This document shows, piece after piece, positions 7,864-60,774 of a stretch of DNA of 64,000 nucleotides (position 1 is the stretch's first letter; the number at the start of each line of letters is the position of its first letter). Position numbers and translations under genes: made by a program. Source of the DNA: Sipunculus nudus (lineage: Eukaryota; Annelida; Sipuncula; Golfingiida; Sipunculidae). The notes below the pieces were generated by a model. That model was not told where the DNA came from. It made no database searches and saw only the letters and a list, made by a program, of their open reading frames with translations. The DNA lies in NCBI GenBank assembly GCA_026874595.1, contig CM049313.1, forward strand, positions 37,352,659 through 37,416,658, read 5' to 3'.

Positions 7864-8940
7864 TCGCATGAAGAAAGTTTTATCATTAAGGTTATGGGTC
7901 TTTACGAAAGTGGTGACAATATTTAGCCCCAGTGTCATGATTCCGGATATACTGTCTGGAAAATATTGATTAAAAGGAATATTCACAAAGTACATGGCAT
8001 GCGATTCGCCACAGTGCGACATTGTTATTTTGCTTGTAATGGTTCTATTGATAATGTTTAACAATACCTACATTTCAACCTTCCATAATTTAATATCCAA
8101 AGTCTGACTTGTATTGGTACTGCCATATTGTAGATACAAAGCCCACTTTAGTGGTAAACTACTCTTATTAAAAACAGGTCGAATTTTACTTCCCCTTTGT
8201 TCCCGTTCTAAATAGGGAGCAAAATTCGACCGATAATTTAATTTGAGAAGTGATAAACATGCACCTTGGTTTCGATAGCTAACGCTTTGTCTCTAAAGAT
8301 AAAAAAAGATTCCTGTAGATGATCGATGACAATGAAATACGAATCAAAAGGGAAATCACTGGGATTAAGTCAACACGCTCAATATTTAATCGCTTGAGTT
8401 TAAAGTAACTGTCTTGCTGGATTAAGAAGGAGCGATGAAGAGCCGCAGAAATGTCGTGTTTATGCTATAAATAGATATGACAAAAAACATGTGGATGAAA
8501 TCTAGTATGATTACAATTAAGTTTAATATGGTTTCTTGTTTACATACAATAGCTGTCAGTTCAATGGAAGCATCCCTGTTTAAAATAGCCCGGCAGTCTA
8601 GTGCAACTTTAGTCCGGATCCGATAAAAGGTGAACTCTTAAAATAAGATAGAATCAGGCTGAGGATCCGAGTGCATCCTTTGTATGTACAGCCTCTGCTG
8701 ATTAAATGTAACTTACAGATTCCTACCTCAGATAAAACTTTCAGTTAAGAGATAATTCCAGGCCTTTGAATGAAAGTAATAAATGAATCACCACGGAAGG
8801 CTTTGATATTAAGGCTGACGTCAAAAGTACATCACGAAAAAACCGCAGTGAATGGGTCACCAGGGCCATTCTGATTATCCCATAAACTGCGTGAAATGAA
8901 TATCCATGGCCTTCGCAATGGTTATCATTGAAATATTGAA
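7864..8940. other. Unannotated stretch
   Basis: No exon-like ORF and no repeat boundary seen. The sequence is ordinary AT-rich DNA. Confidence 0.45.
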
Positions 8941-8942
8941 CC

Positions 8943-8987
8943 TCTCTCTCCCTCTGTATCTCTCTCTCTCTCTCTCCCTCTCTCTCA
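8943..8987. repeat. CT-rich microsatellite
   Basis: An imperfect (CT)n array interrupted by CCCTCTGTAT and CCC segments. It lies about 90 bp before the TRIM compound. Confidence 0.9.
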
Positions 8988-9076
8988 CACAATTTGTCTA
9001 TGATACCTCGCATGTCCCAGGCATGGATATACAGTGAGTCCTGTGTAATAAGACCACCGAACAAACGAGGGACTGG

Positions 9077-9233
9077 TGTTATGGGGTGATATAAAAGCGG
9101 ACCGAACTGTCTCGCTAGGAAAGCTTGCTTTTCTAGCGAAGCGGTTGGGACGCCGGACTTGTGCGCCACCGACCTGGGTTCGACTCCCGGATCGGCCCAG
9201 GATTTTTCCCCTCAACAATTTGTCTTAGTAACA
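9077..9233 (+). repeat. TRIM 5' LTR (copy A)
   Basis: It starts TGTTATGGGG and ends GTAACA, giving 5-bp inverted ends TGTTA/TAACA. The TATA-like TATAAAAG lies at 9090-9097. The four bases before it (CTGG, 9073-9076) recur right after the inverted LTR at 9637-9640, giving a 4-bp target duplication for the whole 9077-9636 compound. Confidence 0.85.
9134..9187 (+). promoter_or_regulatory. tRNA-like Pol III internal promoter in LTR A
   Basis: An A-box match TAGCGAAGCGGT (9134-9145) is followed 31 bp later by a B-box match GGTTCGACTCC (9177-9187). Both fit the tRNA-gene consensus, and the spacing is tRNA-like. The T-arm CTGGGTTCGACTCCCGG can pair, but the anticodon arm is degenerate, so this is a tRNA-derived promoter module and not a tRNA gene. 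Confidence 0.75.
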
Positions 9234-9236
9234 AAA

Positions 9237-9248
9237 TGGGGGCTCGTC
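9237..9248 (+). other. Primer-binding site, tRNA-Pro type
   Basis: TGGGGGCTCGTC, three bases after LTR A, is the complement of the conserved cytosolic tRNA-Pro acceptor end including CCA. Use of tRNA-Pro as primer is well known for some retroelements. The copies at 9512-9524 and 27562-27574 extend the match to TGGGGGCTCGTCC. Confidence 0.8.
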
Positions 9249-9352
9249 TAACGTGACGGTTAACTTTGTAGCCCAAGGAATAAGCTCACCACAGTGTGAC
9301 GCCTGGGATATTTAGTCTTGTTCTGATAGCAGAACGCTCTTAAGAGGGGGTG

Positions 9353-9508
9353 TGTTACGGGGTGACATAAAAGCGGACCGAACTGCCGCGCTAGTGAAGC
9401 TTGCTTTTCTAGCGAAGCGGATGGGCGCCGGACTTGTGCGCCATCGACCTGGGTTCGACTCCCGGATCGGCCCAAGATTTTTTCCCTCAACAATTTGTCT
9501 TCGTAACA
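9353..9508 (+). repeat. TRIM 3' LTR (copy B), with its own PBS downstream
   Basis: It runs from TGTTACGGGG to CGTAACA, with A box TAGCGAAGCGG (9410-9420) and B box GGTTCGACTCC (9452-9462). Unusually, it is followed by AAA and another tRNA-Pro primer-binding site (9512-9524), so it acts as a 5' LTR as well. That is expected in a tandem element or a recombination product. Confidence 0.8.
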
Positions 9509-9521
9509 AAATGGGGGCTCG

Positions 9522-9636
9522 TCCGGGAGTCGAACCCAGGTCGGTGGCACACAAGTCCGGCGTCCCAACCGCTTCGCTAGAAAAGCAAGCTTCCCTAGCG
9601 AGACAGTTCGGTCCGCTTTTATGTCACCCCGTAACA
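9522..9636 (-). repeat. Inverted, 3'-truncated TRIM LTR (copy C)
   Basis: Read on the minus strand it starts TGTTACGGGGTGACATAAAA and runs through the A box to the B box, then stops at CCCGGA. There the sequence becomes the complement of the PBS (CGAGCCCCCA). The junction lies inside sequence shared by the PBS and the antisense T-arm of the LTR. With copy B it forms an inverted repeat with arms of about 115 bp. Confidence 0.8.
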
Positions 9637-9640
9637 CTGG

Positions 9641-11060
9641 ACAAAAGTGGTCTGATCCCCAGGGGGTCTTGTTAGACAGGTCAGTTAAAACCAATGTGAA
9701 AGCAGTTCGGTTCGATCAAGGTTGGTCTTATATGAAAGATGGTCTTTCATACACGTTAAGCTAGATTTTATCAACTCGAACATTCTTAACCATTTTGCGT
9801 AACTTGAAAATGTTTGCAAACCGTTAAATCAAAATGTTTAATAATGTATTTCTTTATGTAAAACTTTGCACGATTCAGATCGGACCAACAAAATAAGCAT
9901 GGTAGTCGGAAGTCTTCTTTTAAATTTCAGTGTTTATTATAAGTCTGAAGACCTTAGGTATAAACCGGTTAATTTATGGCCACGTGCATATGTACGAGAT
10001 ATGATTTTGAAATAGACAATAGCTACAGCTAAAGTCCTGCTGCCTTGTCTGAATTCAGAAACCGATAATTAACAGAGGGTCTTCCTCTAAGTACTGGTGA
10101 CCAAAGCTAGCCATGTTGCCAACATAATTTTGTCTGACGTTAATAGAAAGAGGGGCGTTTTTTCTATTGGCAAACAGCCTATTTGATTTTACCAGGAAGA
10201 CATTGTCAGATGTTTAACCCATATATTTTGATCCTTTGTAGTATACAAACCGTCAATATTTTGTCAGCATGTTTGTTCTCTCACAGCATCCTGCCCATTC
10301 CATGTATCGTGACTGATTGCATCCCACGCACGGTCTTCTAGCTCCGCGGTCCCAGCTTTAGCCACGGGTCGCCGTTTCTACAGAATCATATATGCTCCGG
10401 CGAGGAAAACCTCCGCACAGTTAAAATAAAACTTTTAATTCCACACGACTCAAAGCAAAGATGACATATCCTGTGAGGTTCTTGACAGAAATAACTGAGA
10501 GGATTTACTAAATCAAGGTGCGTCATGACGACATGGTACTACCTGGACAGGTATATTGATTAAAGTCATTAAAATAGAGAGCCGAGTACCAGTCTGAATA
10601 CGTATTTCTATGCACTTGAAGCGGTGCGGGGTACATTTGACTATATGCTTCATGTTTCCCTGTCCGTGGTTTACCTTGACGTAACCACTGACATTAAAAT
10701 GTTTGTTGATGAATACAGTAAAACCTTAAGTTGCGGCCACTCATCCATTATGAACATCTCTCTACATCAGTTCTTAAATGGCCGTTTGAAAGGTTAAAAA
10801 CGAGGTTAATTCGTAATCTGTCTATAGTACTACACTCGACTCCTGTCTATTACGACCAAAGAGTCCGTATAACTTGGGAAATACTTTGTGGTGTATATGT
10901 TTTACCTATACATGAAAAGAGCACAACAATTATGAAAATTATATTACATTCATACACTGAATCAAGTTTTTTTTTAAAATTTTTTGTTCGATTTTGCGCC
11001 TTCCTCCAGAGTGAGTCACATGATATCAACCTAAACAATAACAAAAATATGAAATGAATA
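9641..11060. other. Unannotated stretch
   Basis: No supported gene. A 108-codon frame at 10731-11057 has no recognisable domain and AT-rich, exon-unlike composition. No further element ends seen. Confidence 0.4.
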
Positions 11061-27310: not shown

Positions 27311-27561
27311 AGAAACATGACATGTGAAGACAAATTGATCAGGGGAAAATACTTAGCCGATCTCGGATTCGTAGATGGCGAACAGGTCCGGCGTACCAAC
27401 CACTTCGCCAACTTCACTAGCGAGAGAGTTCGGTCCGCTTTTATGTCACCCCGTAACACATCCCCTCTTAAGGGCGTTCTGCTATCAGTACAAGACCAAT
27501 TTTCCCAGGAGTCACCCTTTGGTGAGCTTATTCCCTGGGCCACAAAGTTTACCGTCACGTT

Positions 27562-27574
27562 GGACGAGCCCCCA
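27562..27574 (-). other. Primer-binding site, tRNA-Pro type
   Basis: On the minus strand it reads TGGGGGCTCGTCC, a 13-base complement of the conserved tRNA-Pro 3' end including CCA. It starts three bases after the 5' LTR end CGTAACA, exactly as at 9237 and 9512. Confidence 0.8.
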
Positions 27575-27622
27575 TTTTGTTACGAAGACAAATTGCTCAG
27601 GAGAAAATACTTGGCCGATCCG

Positions 27623-27676
27623 GGATTCGAACCCATGTGGGTGGTGCACAAGTCCGGCGTACCAACCCTTTCGCTA
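27623..27676 (-). promoter_or_regulatory. tRNA-like Pol III promoter in TRIM LTR
   Basis: On the minus strand an A-box-like TAGCGAAAGGGT (27676-27665) is followed by a consensus B box GGTTCGAATCC (27633-27623). The spacing matches that at 9.1 kb. The A box has two changes from the other copies. Confidence 0.7.
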
Positions 27677-27939
27677 GAAAAGCAAGCTGCACTAGCGAGA
27701 CAGTTTGGTCCGCTTTTATGTCACCCCGTTACACACTGTTGTATCTTAATTCTATAGTCACTACATTAACCACAATTAGGTTTATTTACCTAAGGGAATG
27801 CTAAAGATTTACTTGATTAGTTTAAGAGAAAATTGTCATGAGACACTGCTATCAGATGCAGATGGTGATATGTCATAAAATCGGCTCATTAACATATCCC
27901 TAGGAGAGAGAGAGAGCGCGAGTGAGAGGTCTAAGGTCC

Positions 27940-39944: not shown

Positions 39945-40067
39945 CCCGTTCGTGTGCGTGTGTGTGTTTGTTCGTGTGTTTGTTCCCAACATAACTCAAG
40001 CAATCATGAACGGAAACTCATGAAATGTACAGGATATTTCAGTAATGGGCCAATAAAGAATCGATTC
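39945..40067 (+). repeat. Dispersed GT-containing repeat, copy 2
   Basis: It reads 'cccgttcgtgtgcgtgtgtg', 'tgtttgttccca', 'caatcatgaacggaaa', 'catgaaatgtacagg' and 'gggccaataaagaatcgatt'. It ends about 20 bp before the 42-bp minisatellite. Confidence 0.65.
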
Positions 40068-40086
40068 GATTTTTTCTAGATTTAAA

Positions 40087-41676
40087 TGTACAAACCAAGA
40101 CAGCTACAGAGAAAATATACAGTCTGCATGTACACATGAAGACAGCTACAGAGAAAATATACAGTCTGCATGTACAAATGAAGACAGCTACAGGGAAAAT
40201 AAACAGTCTGCATATAAAGCACGACAGCGACAGGGAAAATATACAGTATGCATGTACAAAGCAATACAGCTACAGGAATAATGTACAGTCTGCAAGTACA
40301 AATCAAGACAGCTACAGGGAAAATATACATTCCGCATGTACAAATCAAGACAGCTACAGGGAAAATATACAGTCTGTCTGTACAAATCAAGACAGCTACA
40401 GAGAAAATATACAGTCTGCATGTACAAATGAAGACAGCTACAGAGAACATATACAGTCTGCATGTACAGATCAAGATAGCTACAGGAATAATATACAGTC
40501 TGTCTGTACAAATCAAGACAGCAATAGGGATAAAATACAGTCTGTACAAATCAAGACAGCTACAAGGATAATATACAGTCTGCATTTACAAATAAAGACA
40601 GCTACAGGAATAATATACAGTCTACATGTACAAATCAAGACAGCAATCGGAAAAATATACAGTCTGCATGTAGAAAATCAAGACAGCTACAGGAAAATAT
40701 ACAGTCTGTCCGTACAAATCAAGACAGCAATAGGAATAATATACAGTCTGCATGTACAAAGCAAGACAGCTACAGGGAAAATATACAGTCTGTACAAATC
40801 AAGACAGCTACAGGGATAAAATACAGTATGCATGTACAAATTAAGGGAGCTACAGGAATAATATACAGTCTGCATGTATAAATCAAGACAGCTACAGGAA
40901 AAATATACAGTCTGCATGTACAAATCAAGACAGCAATAGGGATAATATACAGTCTGTCTGTACAAATCAAGACAGCTACAGGAATAATATACAGTCTTTA
41001 CAAATCGATACAGCTACAGGGATAATATACAGTATGCATGTACAAATCAAAAGAGCAACAGAGATAATATACAGTCTTGATGTACAAATCAAGACAGCAA
41101 TAGGGATAATATACAGTCTGCATGTACAAATTCAAGACAGCAACAGGAATGATATACAGTCTGTACAAATCAAGACAGCTACAGGGATAATATACATTCT
41201 CTGTACAAATCAAGACAGCAATAGGAATAATATACAGTCTGTCTGTACAAATCAAGACAGCTACAGGGATAGTACACAGTCTGCATGTACACATCTAGAC
41301 AGCTACAGGGATATTACACAGTCTGCATGTACAAATCAAGACAGCTACAGGAATAATATACAGTCTGTCTGTACAAATCAAGACAGCTACAGGAATAATA
41401 TACAGTCTGTCTGTACAAATCAAGACAGCTGCGGGGAAAATATACAGTCTGTCTGTACAAATCAAGACAACAATAGGGATAAAATACAGTCTGCCTGTGC
41501 AAATCAAGACAGCTACAGGAATAATATACAGTCTGTCTGTACAAATCAAGACAGCTACAGGGAAATTATACAGCCTGCAAGTACAAAGCACGACAGCTAC
41601 AGGGAAAATATACAGTCTGCATGTATAAATCAAGACAGCTACATGGAAAATATACAGTCTGTATGTACAAACCAAA
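40087..41676 (+). repeat. 42-bp minisatellite, about 38-40 units
   Basis: The core GACAGCTACAGGRAWAATAT is followed by ACAGTCTGCATGTACAAATCA. Variant sites are regular: GCTACAGG versus GCAATAGG, GGAAAA versus GGAATAA or GGGATAA, and CTGCATGTAC versus CTGTCTGTAC or a 4-bp shorter CTGTAC. Because 42 is a multiple of three and most units lack stops, frames of 227, 236, 167 and 126 codons stay open on both strands (14-residue repeats such as NQDSYRENIQSACT). They begin and end where short units shift the frame, and their starts are internal, so I do not call them genes. Confidence 0.95.
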
Positions 41677-41679
41677 ACT

Positions 41680-42405
41680 CCTTAGTTTATAAACCAGAGA
41701 AAAGAGAAGCCGCTAATAATGTCCAAATAATGAATGAATCCTAAGCAAGACCCTTTGCAAAACTAACAGACGACGACTTTCAAAGTTGAACAGGTGTTTG
41801 TTCAACAATTTGCTTTCTCTGCTTGGAAATTAAGAAACAGCTGATTAGATAAGTGTCCAAATAATTGACCTCCCTGGTTTAATAGTAAAAGTCTGCAACA
41901 TCAGGAAAGGTTTTAATATATTTATACATCGTTTTAGTTTAATACTATTATATATATAGGCATTTTCATAAAGTGGACACCCATGCATAGTGGCCATTTT
42001 TTTTACCGGTCCCGTGCTTTTCCTCCTCATTATTAATGTTGCATGAACCACCTATATAACCATAAACCGACAGGATAATAACACCTCCTATGACAATATA
42101 TCGATCACCATCTCTCCCATATGATGTACAGTTAACAACTTACATATGCGCCTTTTTATCATGTATGAAAGGTAAGAAAAAAAAAATAAAATTTTGGCTG
42201 AAAATATTAAGGTAAGTGTTCTTTGAAAAAAATCATTATAACATTCTTAGAAAAGATAGGATAAAATATTGTTTCAGCGATTAAATTTATATTCAGTAGT
42301 TAAATATCCATTACGTGGCGTTTATATATTTATGTCAAGTCTGTTCAAGACAGTCCTTTGTGTCACATAAGTTTAACTTTTGTCATTAGCGTTTGAGTTT
42401 TAAAT
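41680..42405. other. Unannotated stretch
   Basis: AT-rich sequence between the minisatellite and the large solo LTR; no supported feature. Confidence 0.45.
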
Positions 42406-43309: not shown

Positions 43310-43313
<4 letters not shown>

Positions 43314-43463
43314 ACGGGGTGACATAAAAGCGGACCGAACTATCTCGCTAGTGAAGCTTGCTTTTCTAGCGAAGCGGTTGGTACGCAGGACTTGTGCGCC
43401 ACCCACATGGGTTCGAATCCGAGATCGGCCCGATGTTTCCCCTAAAAAATTGTCTTCGTAACA
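43310..43463 (+). mobile_element. Solo TRIM LTR inserted in (AT)n
   Basis: The 154-bp unit runs from TGTTACGGGG to CGTAACA. It has A box TAGCGAAGCGGT (43367-43378) and a perfect-consensus B box GGTTCGAATCC (43410-43420). The flanks are ATAT on both sides, consistent with a 4-bp target duplication but uninformative in a TA array. The interior and second LTR are gone, as expected from recombination between LTRs. Confidence 0.85.
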
Positions 43464-53738: not shown

Positions 53739-53882
53739 TTTTACGGGGTGACATAAAAGCGGACCGAAATGTCTCGCTTTTCTAGCGAAGCGGTTGATAC
53801 GCCGGACTTGTGCGCCACCAACATGGGTTCAAAACCGGGATCGGCCCAATGTTTGCCCCTGAGCAATTTGACTTTCGTAACA
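53739..53882 (+). mobile_element. Solo TRIM LTR with 4-bp target duplication
   Basis: The 144-bp LTR runs from TTTTACGGGG (TGTTACG with G to T) to CGTAACA and lacks about 10 bp around the GTGAAGCTTG segment. A box TAGCGAAGCGGT is at 53783-53794; the B box is damaged (GGTTCAAAACC, 53826-53836). ATAC flanks it at 53735-53738 and 53883-53886. Confidence 0.85.
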
Positions 53883-58219: not shown

Positions 58220-60774
58220 ATGTATTCACACAAATCAGGAGCACAGAAACGTAAAGAAAGGAAAGAAAAACAAGAAAATGAAACAAAGGGACAGCAGGCG
58301 CTCTTTCAACAGGGATTAGGACCACCGAAAAATGAACACTTATCGAGCAGATCTGCAGAACTGGAGAAGGGAGAAACTATTGGAATCCAAAGTGATAAAC
58401 CAGGAGCAGTTGATTTTGATAATCGGGACGTGGCTGAAGGATCTCATACAAAAACTGAAACTCTGTCTGAAAGTGAACAAAAGAAGGAAAGTATTATAGG
58501 GGGTCATGAGCATTTGGAAGATGAGGGTGATAATGTTGGTCATGACATTGGATGCCTAAAAACTGAGTTTTCTCCTCAAACAGAAATTGAAAAGTATATT
58601 GTGAATGGTCACATTTCATTACCGAAAACATTCCCCAAAGATACAAACAATCAAGTTTACCAGAGAGTGTTTTCAAATTTCGCAGCTGTAACGGAGAACA
58701 GCATACACGAGACTTGCTTGCCTGGAGCCATGAGAAACAAGCTTTGTATTGTTTTCCATGTCGGTTATTTTGGCATAAAAGTAGTACCTCTGTATCCAAG
58801 TCCGCTTTGGCATTAGCTGACGGCTGGGCAGTAAACGCAAAATGGCGTAAGCTTTCAAACAGAGTACCAGAACACGAGAGTGTTACCTGGCGTGGAGGGA
58901 ATTAAAGAGGCGGCTGTTATCTGGGAAAGGAGTTGATAGTATCTTAGAATCGTCAATCCAAGCTGAATCCCTGATATGGTATAATATCCTGAGGCGTATC
59001 ATTGATGTTGTACATTTCTTGGGAGAAAGTGGTCTAGCTTTTGCTGGATCATGCCATCGCATTGGGGATTCAAACAATGGAAACTTTTTAGGACTCGTTG
59101 AACTGCTGTCTAGGTGGGACCCCATACTTCAGGAACATGTGCTACGTGTGCAGGAGTCGCAGGAACGAGGTGAACGACTTCAGGTTCATTGTTTGTCCCC
59201 TGATTTACAAAATGAATTTATAGCAGAATGCCCCGATCTTGTTTAACAACATATATTACATGAAAGACGGTCTGCAAATTACTTTGCAGTAATAGTCGAT
59301 GCAACACTAGATTCATCCCGTACTTTACAAACAACGTTTCTTTTGAGATACGTGATATTAAAAGAAAGACAGTATGAAATTCAAGAGAGATTTTTCAAGT
59401 TTGCAGACTGTACTAATAAAGAGGACTTTGCTTAGTTGATCACTGATACCTTGGAAGAACATGCTATTCCTCTAAATGAGTGTAGAGCACAAGCCTATTA
59501 CAACGGGACAAACATGGCTGGAAGATGGTGCACAAGCTAAAATACAAGAACAGTGCCAAACAGCATTATTTTCACCTTGTGGTTGTCACACACTCAACTT
59601 GTGTCGAAATGATGCTGCTGAATGTATACCTGAAGCAATAACGTTCTTTGGAACGATACAAACGATCTACAACCTGTTTAGTTCTAGTCCCAAGCGATGG
59701 GAAATACTGCAGAAAAACATTGGCTGCTCTCTTCATGGAAAATGTGACACAAGATGGTCAGATCGTGTTGAAGGTGTAAAGCCTTTTGCTGCTCATCTGC
59801 CGGGCATTAAACTTGCACTAGAAGAACTGCTAGAGCTAAATTTGACGGCCAAAACAAGACATGATGTAAATGGAGCTTTAGGTTATGTAACAACCTTTAC
59901 CTGTGTATAAATGTCAGCTGTGTGGTTCAAAGTACTAGTTCGCATAGATATCTGCAACAAGGTAATCCAAACCAGAAACGCAACATTGGATGTCGAGGTA
60001 GAAAACATCGAAACTAAAGAATCTGGCGATACTCCGAGACAAATGGAAGAGCTTGTGGAATGAAGCAAAAGCGGTTGCTTCCAGTCTCCACATAGAACCA
60101 CAATTTTCCAGTGGTCACGGACGTAGTGGGGTAAGGCGGAATAGAGAAAAGACAGCATGATGACAACACACCTGATGCCGAGTTGATGGAAATGAATGAC
60201 ACTGATGAATCGCCAGAGGATGCCTACTTTAGAAAGACTGTGATCTACGTTTTGCTAGATAATGTTATTGCAAGTTTAACTATCCGCTCCAAATCTGTTA
60301 AGCAGTTGGCCGATAAGTTTTATTTTTTATGGAAATATCTTGATATGTCTGAAGGTGATGTGGAAACAAGAGCCTTGTCTTTGGCGAGTCAATATCCTGA
60401 TGATCTTAATGGCCAGGAGTTGTTGACAGAAATGAGGCATCTACCTACAGTACATCAAGCAAACTTTGGCAAAACACATTTGAACCCATTAGAATTGTTG
60501 AACTTGATAACAGAATTCAGACTTGGTGAACTCTTTCCAAATGTGTGCATCAGTTTACGCATACTGTTAACTATGCCTGCAACAGTAGCTTCTGCAGAAA
60601 GGTCTTTCAGCAAATTGAACCTGATCAAGAATTTTTTTAAGGATGACAATGGCACAAGGTAGTCTTGTTGATTTGGCCAGATTGAGCATTGAGTCGAAAC
60701 TTGCCCGATCAATTGATTTCGATCTTGTCATCATAAACATTTCACAAAGAAAGGCAAGGAAAGCCCATTTTTAG
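58220..60774 (+). pseudogene. hAT transposase pseudogene (ZMYM/DUF4371-like)
   Basis: The order of recognisable parts is that of a hAT transposase. A charged, Lys/Glu-rich N-terminus (58220-58560) is followed by a zinc-finger-like segment with 'SHEKQALYCFPCRLFW' (58726-58773). Next comes the catalytic-core start with 'VIVDATLDSSRTLQTTFLLR' (59290-59349), then an 'YYNGTNMAG' segment (59496-59522), 'CGCHTLNLC' (59578-59604) and the C-terminal dimerisation domain with 'MPATVASAERSFSKLNLIKN' (60572-60631). Reading is broken by frameshifts near 58700, 58876, 59521, 60015, 60150 and 60642 and by in-frame stops at 59244, 59433 and 59908. The intact length would be about 800 residues, normal for the family. 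In life such proteins bind the element ends in the nucleus and cut and paste it. It is clearly non-functional. Confidence 0.9.

Follow-up and report, generated by a model that had tools for sequence, protein, structure and literature searches.

The locus studied here raises the question of what kind of mobile element carries A and B boxes in its LTRs, where this element ends and how its present form arose. It lies in a 64,000-nucleotide stretch of contig CM049313.1 of Sipunculus nudus (the window, to which all positions refer), and a preliminary description had placed a miniature LTR retroelement at 9077-9508. The features identified in this region are as follows.

9073-9076, no strand: left target-site duplication (TSD) CTGG, from the letters flanking the insertion
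9077-9233, plus strand: 5′ LTR, 157 bp, from LTR alignment
9089-9097, plus strand: TATA-like motif of the 5′ LTR, ATATAAAAG (ACATAAAAG in most copies)
9134-9144, plus strand: A box of the 5′ LTR, TAGCGAAGCGG, from an A+B box pattern match
9177-9187, plus strand: B box of the 5′ LTR, GGTTCGACTCC, from an A+B box pattern match
9203-9207, plus strand: T5 run, candidate Pol III terminator
9234-9352, plus strand: non-coding interior, 119 bp
9237-9248, plus strand: primer-binding site (PBS) TGGGGGCTCGTC, 12 nt complementary to the tRNA-Pro 3′ end
9342-9350, plus strand: polypurine tract (PPT) AAGAGGGGG
9353-9508, plus strand: 3′ LTR, 156 bp, from LTR alignment
9410-9420, plus strand: A box of the 3′ LTR, from an A+B box pattern match
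9452-9462, plus strand: B box of the 3′ LTR, from an A+B box pattern match
9478-9483, plus strand: T6 run, candidate Pol III terminator
9512-9528, plus strand: 17 nt matching the tRNA-Pro 3′ end (the 12-nt PBS and CGGGA), the fold-back joint
9522-9636, minus strand: LTR copy in inverted orientation, from LTR position 114 to 1, sharing TCCGGGA with the tRNA piece
9526-9579, minus strand: third A+B box pair, within the inverted LTR copy, from an A+B box pattern match
9637-9640, no strand: right TSD CTGG, from the letters flanking the insertion

Structure and classification of the element

The LTR-interior-LTR part of the element comprises 432 bp. Its LTRs of 157 and 156 bp are 92% identical and correspond to the direct repeats of about 155 bp in the preliminary description; the tRNA-Pro PBS (9237-9248), the 119-bp non-coding interior (9234-9352) and the purine tract (9342-9350) named there were all located. 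The interior begins with AAA followed by TGGGGGCTCGTC and ends with AAGAGGGGG followed by TG. With at most one mismatch, the PBS 12-mer was found three times in the window (0.07 matches expected). The TATA-like box and the A and B boxes at tRNA-like spacing reported earlier for each LTR were also borne out: the search for both boxes at tRNA spacing gave four matches in the window, all inside LTRs of the Helenus-type family discussed below, compared with none in 100 shuffles, and in the window LTRs the B box starts 42-43 bp past the start of the A box.

The coordinates given earlier proved too short. An element end at 9508 was rejected, since there is no TSD at this position; downstream of the 3′ LTR there follow AAA, 17 nt of the tRNA-Pro 3′ end and then an inverted LTR, and the insertion reaches 9636, with a single TSD (CTGG, at 9073-9076 and 9637-9640) around the whole. 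The PBS of the interior reads TGGGGGCTCGTC-TAACG, and the joint reads TGGGGGCTCGTC-CGGGA, as in tRNA-Pro.

TRIMs whose LTR includes a tRNA-derived sequence, and which have a PBS and a PPT, are described in the available part of one paper as Helenus, for which the name TRIMp3 was proposed (Kojima 2024, PMC10886601). As stated there, Helenus elements of animals have 4-bp TSDs and are reported from six animal phyla, tRNA-Pro is one of the primers of the bivalve families, tandem arrays were noted for one family, and the tRNA-like sequence of the LTR does not contribute to initiation. The window element shares with them a short non-coding LTR structure, A and B boxes in the LTRs, a tRNA PBS, a PPT, a 4-bp TSD and tandem forms, and it is a Helenus-type TRIM, a placement made by structural features. 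It differs by its fold-backs, by tRNA sequence copied past the PBS and by joints to a putative helper, none of which is described in the available part of PMC10886601. The evidence for a tRNA derivation of the LTR module consists of the boxes and their spacing; no tRNA model matches. The earlier view of the element as an animal counterpart of Cassandra built on a tRNA-like module holds as regards its TRIM type and the A and B boxes of each LTR, but the suggestion that the family was undescribed does not, given Helenus (PMC10886601).

Two other groups of TRIMs were considered. As far as the available text of PMC7215508 and PMC10886601 shows, Cassandra of plants is similar in having a Pol III-type LTR module, a candidate terminator and tandem arrays, but its module is a 5S rRNA sequence and it belongs to land plants, whereas the window element has a tRNA-like module. 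Rfam gave no 5S rRNA match in the window at the gathering score, nor in 8900-9800 at E up to 10, and membership in Cassandra was rejected, the LTR being without 5S rRNA sequence. The biv-TRIM elements of bivalves (PMC6934838, available part) are also animal TRIMs with solo and tandem forms; their TDRs measure 202-218 bp, their interior measures 77-80 bp and no canonical PBS was found in them. The corresponding sizes in the window are 156 and 119 bp, with an evident PBS, and membership was rejected on these sizes.

The kind of element is thus already known, as Helenus. Neither fold-backs that include primer tRNA sequence nor joints with a second LTR family appear to have been reported, to judge from the text available in a literature search of mostly open-access papers, which returned no report of either. 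In retroviruses, tRNA letters between LTRs are known.

Related copies of the element are also present elsewhere in the window:

27326-27733, minus strand: second, more diverged LTR-interior-LTR copy, whose LTRs share 86% and 75% identity with the 3′ LTR
43310-43463, plus strand: related solo LTR (87% identity), with no interior match
53741-53882, plus strand: related LTR, more diverged (77%), with no interior match

Two other parts of the window may be mentioned: the long open frames at 40046-41744 are degenerate tandem repeats, and a 175-aa open frame at 60135-60662 resembles, on inspection by eye, a C-terminal portion of a hAT transposase.

The S. nudus assembly comprises 1.43 Gb in 153 contigs, and its 17 large contigs, with a sum of about 1.40 Gb, suggest 17 chromosomes. 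A search of the genome with the 432-bp query gave 56 matches among the best 40 of 3053 first-look candidates. The resulting copy set (the window and 39 further loci) comprises the copies nearest to that of the window and is not an unbiased sample. Exact 4-bp TSDs flank 23 of the 32 clusters in which both ends are complete (window included; eight without a complete end were left out), compared with a mean of 1.46 and a maximum of 6 in 2000 shuffles. Of 54 interiors, 36 have the 12-nt PBS without change and 42 have the purine tract and its flanking letters, TTAAGAGGGGGTG.

Three or four near-complete LTRs are arranged in tandem at 7 of the 40 loci; inverted adjoining copies also occur (e.g. locus L016). 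The mean difference between LTRs is 8.3% within a locus (32 pairs) and 9.9% between loci (91 LTR copies), so that the sampled copies are not recent. No extra cluster was found in 76,738 flank bases under a merging rule that absorbs near neighbours, and this figure was therefore set aside as a measure of copy density. An LTR motif gave no match in viral contigs.

The tRNA-like module of the LTR

ARAGORN, which does detect the tRNA-Pro gene at locus L105, returned no tRNA for the window or for any of 44 loci. Comparison with tRNA covariance models, as proposed in the preliminary description, gave no Rfam tRNA family in 8900-9800 at E up to 10. A functional tRNA gene was rejected for want of an ARAGORN cloverleaf or an Rfam tRNA match, and so was a tRNA-like fold of 9396-9484, which folds no better than shuffled sequences (z 0.12).

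Pol III transcription of the window element is putative; the available text of PMC10886601 leaves open whether Helenus has a functional Pol III promoter. The boxes may instead be the passive remnant of a SINE that landed in the LTR, with Pol II transcription from the TATA-like box, and we give this reading slightly less than an even chance. It is consistent with the presence of both intact boxes in just 49 of 91 LTR copies and with the position of the TATA-like motif among the least variable LTR stretches. As regards the conservation beyond neutral decay that was envisaged earlier, the boxes vary less at non-CpG sites (0.028) than do the other non-CpG sites (0.0575), but because 19 of 155 circular shifts are as low, this is within chance and only suggestive, which again speaks for a remnant. 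It is less easily reconciled with a remnant that the 18 specified box positions include none of the 21 sites that vary frequently (about 2.4 expected by simple arithmetic) and that the one variable site in the B box, 107, corresponds to the free N of the motif.

A T run of at least 4 lies downstream of the B box in 84 of the 91 LTR copies, so a Pol III transcript would tend to end inside the LTR. Such stops in the 5′ LTR would again be in line with a SINE remnant. Termination at these runs had been overlooked in the earlier reading of the locus. According to the available part of PMC10886601, a Cassandra transcript that continues past the first LTR and terminates in the second has short repeats at both ends; by analogy, a read-through Pol III transcript of the window element that ended in the second LTR would carry short terminal repeats.

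The fold-back joint

The joint was first found at other loci by a search with the window junction. A joint pattern, AAAATGGGGGCTCGTCCGGGANTCGAAC, was searched genome-wide with up to two mismatches and gave 55 matches, compared with none for the reversed pattern that served as a control; 52 of the 55 were inspected. The inverted LTR follows directly after the joint, at about LTR position 114, in 42 of these 52 loci, which is not an unbiased rate since the pattern includes T-arm letters. Upstream of the joint there is a Helenus LTR end in 35 loci, the end of another LTR family in 7 and, by the rule used, neither in 10. One of the 52, L105, is the tRNA-Pro gene and contains no joint; L052 has a joint with two extra letters, which lies outside the pattern. 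Four pairs of loci (L048/L054, L051/L056, L073/L074 and L084/L085) are 97.8-98.8% alike over the fetched length or most of it and are duplicated segments, since this likeness extends over the flanks.

After deduplication, and with fold-backs without two complete ends left out, eight fold-backs could be examined for TSDs. Six have exact TSDs (window CTGG, L051 TGGC, L065 CCTT, L070 ACAG, L081 ATAT and L087 ACAG), compared with a mean of 0.99 and a maximum of 5 in 5000 shuffles, and L050 and L097 match at 3 of 4 positions. Exact TSDs were also recognized by eye at L048 (AACA), L049 (ATAT), L079 (AGGA) and L093 (ATAT), although ATAT in A+T-rich flanks weighs little.

One explanation of the inverted arm would be a separate later event, either the insertion of an inverted solo LTR alongside the element or a genomic inversion. 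Inverted neighbouring copies such as that at L016 are known, and a PBS ending in CGGGA is found in ordinary elements (15 of 20 sampled loci; see below). Nevertheless, this explanation is very unlikely in view of the same joint at about LTR position 114 in 42 of 52 loci and of the one exact TSD around the whole structure, seen in the window and in five of the other seven fold-backs with two complete ends; an LTR that had inserted on its own would be complete and have its own TSD.

The reading that we favor, with a probability of roughly 0.78, is that the window copy of this Helenus-type TRIM is an aberrant reverse-transcription product in which strong-stop DNA folded onto the T arm of the LTR. 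The element would borrow gag-pol in trans, its minus strand would be primed by tRNA-Pro, and it would integrate with 4-bp duplications. Plus-strand strong-stop DNA, composed of the LTR and a copy of the primer tRNA, would run about 17-18 nt into tRNA-Pro, up to the methylated A58. The strong-stop end TCCGGGA would then pair with TCCCGGA, which lies in the T arm of an LTR's tRNA-like module, and synthesis from the paired end would continue as far as the LTR 5′ terminus. This would yield a molecule with LTR termini on both sides, to be integrated with the TSD CTGG. The anatomy, the TSDs, the repeated occurrence of the joint and the joints to a second LTR family are observed, and we infer both the order of these steps and the role assigned to tRNA methylation.

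The available part of PMC13191261 describes a comparable strong stop in retroviruses: synthesis of the plus strand proceeds into the 3′ end of the primer tRNA and halts at m1A58, which is listed there for tRNA-Pro among the primer tRNAs. The retroviral end transfers to the PBS; that of a fold-back would instead move to a site in the LTR resembling the T arm. A single TCCGGGA is present in the window 3′ LTR and interior, on the LTR antisense strand at the T arm. The landing site TCCCGGA is kept in 63 of 91 LTR copies, a value counted against the fold-back model. The window inverted arm differs from the 5′ LTR at 4 and from the 3′ LTR at 6 of 99 sites, values too similar for its template to be named.

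It is improbable, though less so than a later event, that the fold-back form is a mobile family copied from a master and not a set of independent accidents. The inverted arms of L049, L050, L051 and L065 are only 6-10% apart and lie near each other in the tree, so that some of them may descend from one composite, and composites can propagate, as shown by the approximately 1.25 kb that L147 and L116 share (see below). Copying from a master is at odds with the variation in form (full element in front or not, second LTR family, arm length) and with the finding that the distance between the two halves is below their mean distance to other fold-backs in 6 of 8 comparisons (5 of 7 insertions, since the window counts twice), the exceptions being L049 and L061. 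In a tree of 107 tips, the halves are nearest neighbours in none of six tested fold-backs: among 106 tips, half 1 ranks second to half 2 in two cases, fourth in one, 12th in the window, 42nd in L049 and 103rd in L048. Since the halves are not always nearest relatives, some joints were formed between molecules or have been altered since.

A further possibility is self-priming, in which the plus strand would copy the whole of a primer that is not tRNA-Pro but an RNA derived from the LTR, its 3′ end resembling that of tRNA-Pro. The minus-strand inverted arm is indeed LTR sequence ending in CGAGCCCCCA. Self-priming would require C at LTR position 115, which is T in 90 of 91 copies (the commonest letters there are TCGGCCC, in 63 of 91), and the arm reaches the LTR 5′ terminus, which would lie upstream of any likely Pol III start. 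Moreover, L096, L100, L104 and L132 carry from 38 to approximately 62 nt of tRNA-Pro sequence, and we regard this origin as exceedingly improbable.

Long tRNA-Pro copies and joints to a second LTR family

A wider pattern, consisting of the LTR end and 17 nt of tRNA-Pro without T-arm letters (up to two mismatches), gave 499 genomic matches, compared with 0 for the control. All of the 100 listed matches are without mismatch; 12 of these are T-arm joints, and 20 of the remaining 88 were sampled, picked by eye along the list. At 15 of the 20 loci the 17 nt are followed by a Helenus interior, in some cases with a damaged or missing 5′ LTR, and the PBS reads CGGGA where that of the window reads TAACG. 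Since these 15 loci encode a 17-nt PBS before the interior, CGGGA alone is no proof of tRNA copying; in an ordinary PBS it may fit either inheritance from the tRNA or an older form of the PBS. Only the long tRNA-Pro copies require the tRNA itself as template. In the other five sampled loci, L134 and L144 have a gag-like leader after the Helenus LTR, L132 has a long tRNA-Pro copy and two contain an unrelated repeat. At L135 and L142, a different repeat with GTAACATTTTGGGGGCTCGTCCGGGA is present near position 401, with no match to Helenus or to the second LTR family.

Five long tRNA-Pro copies were identified (L095, L096, L100, L104 and L132). By manual count, those of L096 (38 nt), L100 and L104 (both 39 nt) end at tRNA position 39 or 38, adjoining G37; the copy in L095, which is shorter, and that in L132 end at neither. 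The L132 copy, from about 401-430 onward, follows a Helenus LTR and comprises approximately 62 nt of tRNA-Pro, in which the letter opposite A58 is changed. G37 was read from the L105 gene and is presumably methylated in tRNA-Pro; with five long-copy cases, a stop at this position is a lead, not a result.

In 7 of the 52 inspected loci, the tRNA piece is preceded by the end of a second LTR family, typically TTCCGTAACA. An inverted Helenus LTR is joined to it in six of the seven, directly in five (L080, L090, L099, L101 and L107) and after a short gap in L094, and L104 combines the second-family LTR end with a long tRNA-Pro copy. The second family has LTRs of 766-817 bp, with AATAAA recognized by eye and 4-bp TSDs in 4 of 6 solo LTRs examined; a genome search for it gave 5071 first-look candidates, the best 40 of which were scored. 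The flanks of the composites were checked in three of the seven loci, their left ends being recognized by likeness to known LTR starts: exact GTAT is present on both sides of L107 (with L110) and exact GGTA on both sides of L090 (with L108), whose first part is a Helenus LTR, and the flanks of L080 (with L109) match at 3 of 4 positions.

Comparison of L147 (1-1266) with the reverse strand of L116 revealed approximately 1.25 kb in common (78%). This composite consists of a PBS, a gag-like leader, part of a second-family LTR and a Helenus interior and LTR, with a Helenus LTR in front; L148 and L146 contain parts of it. A stretch, GGTGGTTTGAAGTAATT, is common to L078 and L130, where it lies inside the Helenus interior, and to L116, where it lies past the second-family LTR; given these three contexts, it is perhaps another mobile element.

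The simplest reading suggested by the second-family joints is that two RNAs were present in one particle, i.e. that the second family was co-packaged and may act as a helper. Its gag-like pieces, so called by eye, gave no Pfam match above the cut-off, and no pol, RT or integrase domain was found in the family, so its role as a helper is a matter of inference. In the available part of PMC10886601, the helpers of Helenus were deduced mainly from PBS similarity, with one shared interior in addition, and there is no indication of a helper for Cassandra. Animal Helenus elements are ascribed to mobilization by Gypsy elements, and the second family, which is joined to Helenus, has a tRNA-Pro piece and makes 4-bp TSDs, would be expected to belong to Gypsy.

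More generally, the tRNA-like module may act in another way in addition to any promoter role: because its T arm matches the primer tRNA, it may give strong-stop DNA an alternative landing site, so that LTR palindromes are regularly made and integrated, and the insertions may record the stops of reverse transcription (at A58, then G37) as well as co-packaged LTR RNAs. We propose this tentatively, as somewhat more doubtful than not. If true, the insertions would make visible some steps of reverse transcription that are otherwise lost, by showing the priming tRNA, the length copied, possible modification stops and a possible protein supplier. They would also open a sequence-only route to the helper of a non-autonomous LTR element, and they raise the question of whether the resemblance of an LTR module to the primer tRNA comes at a cost.
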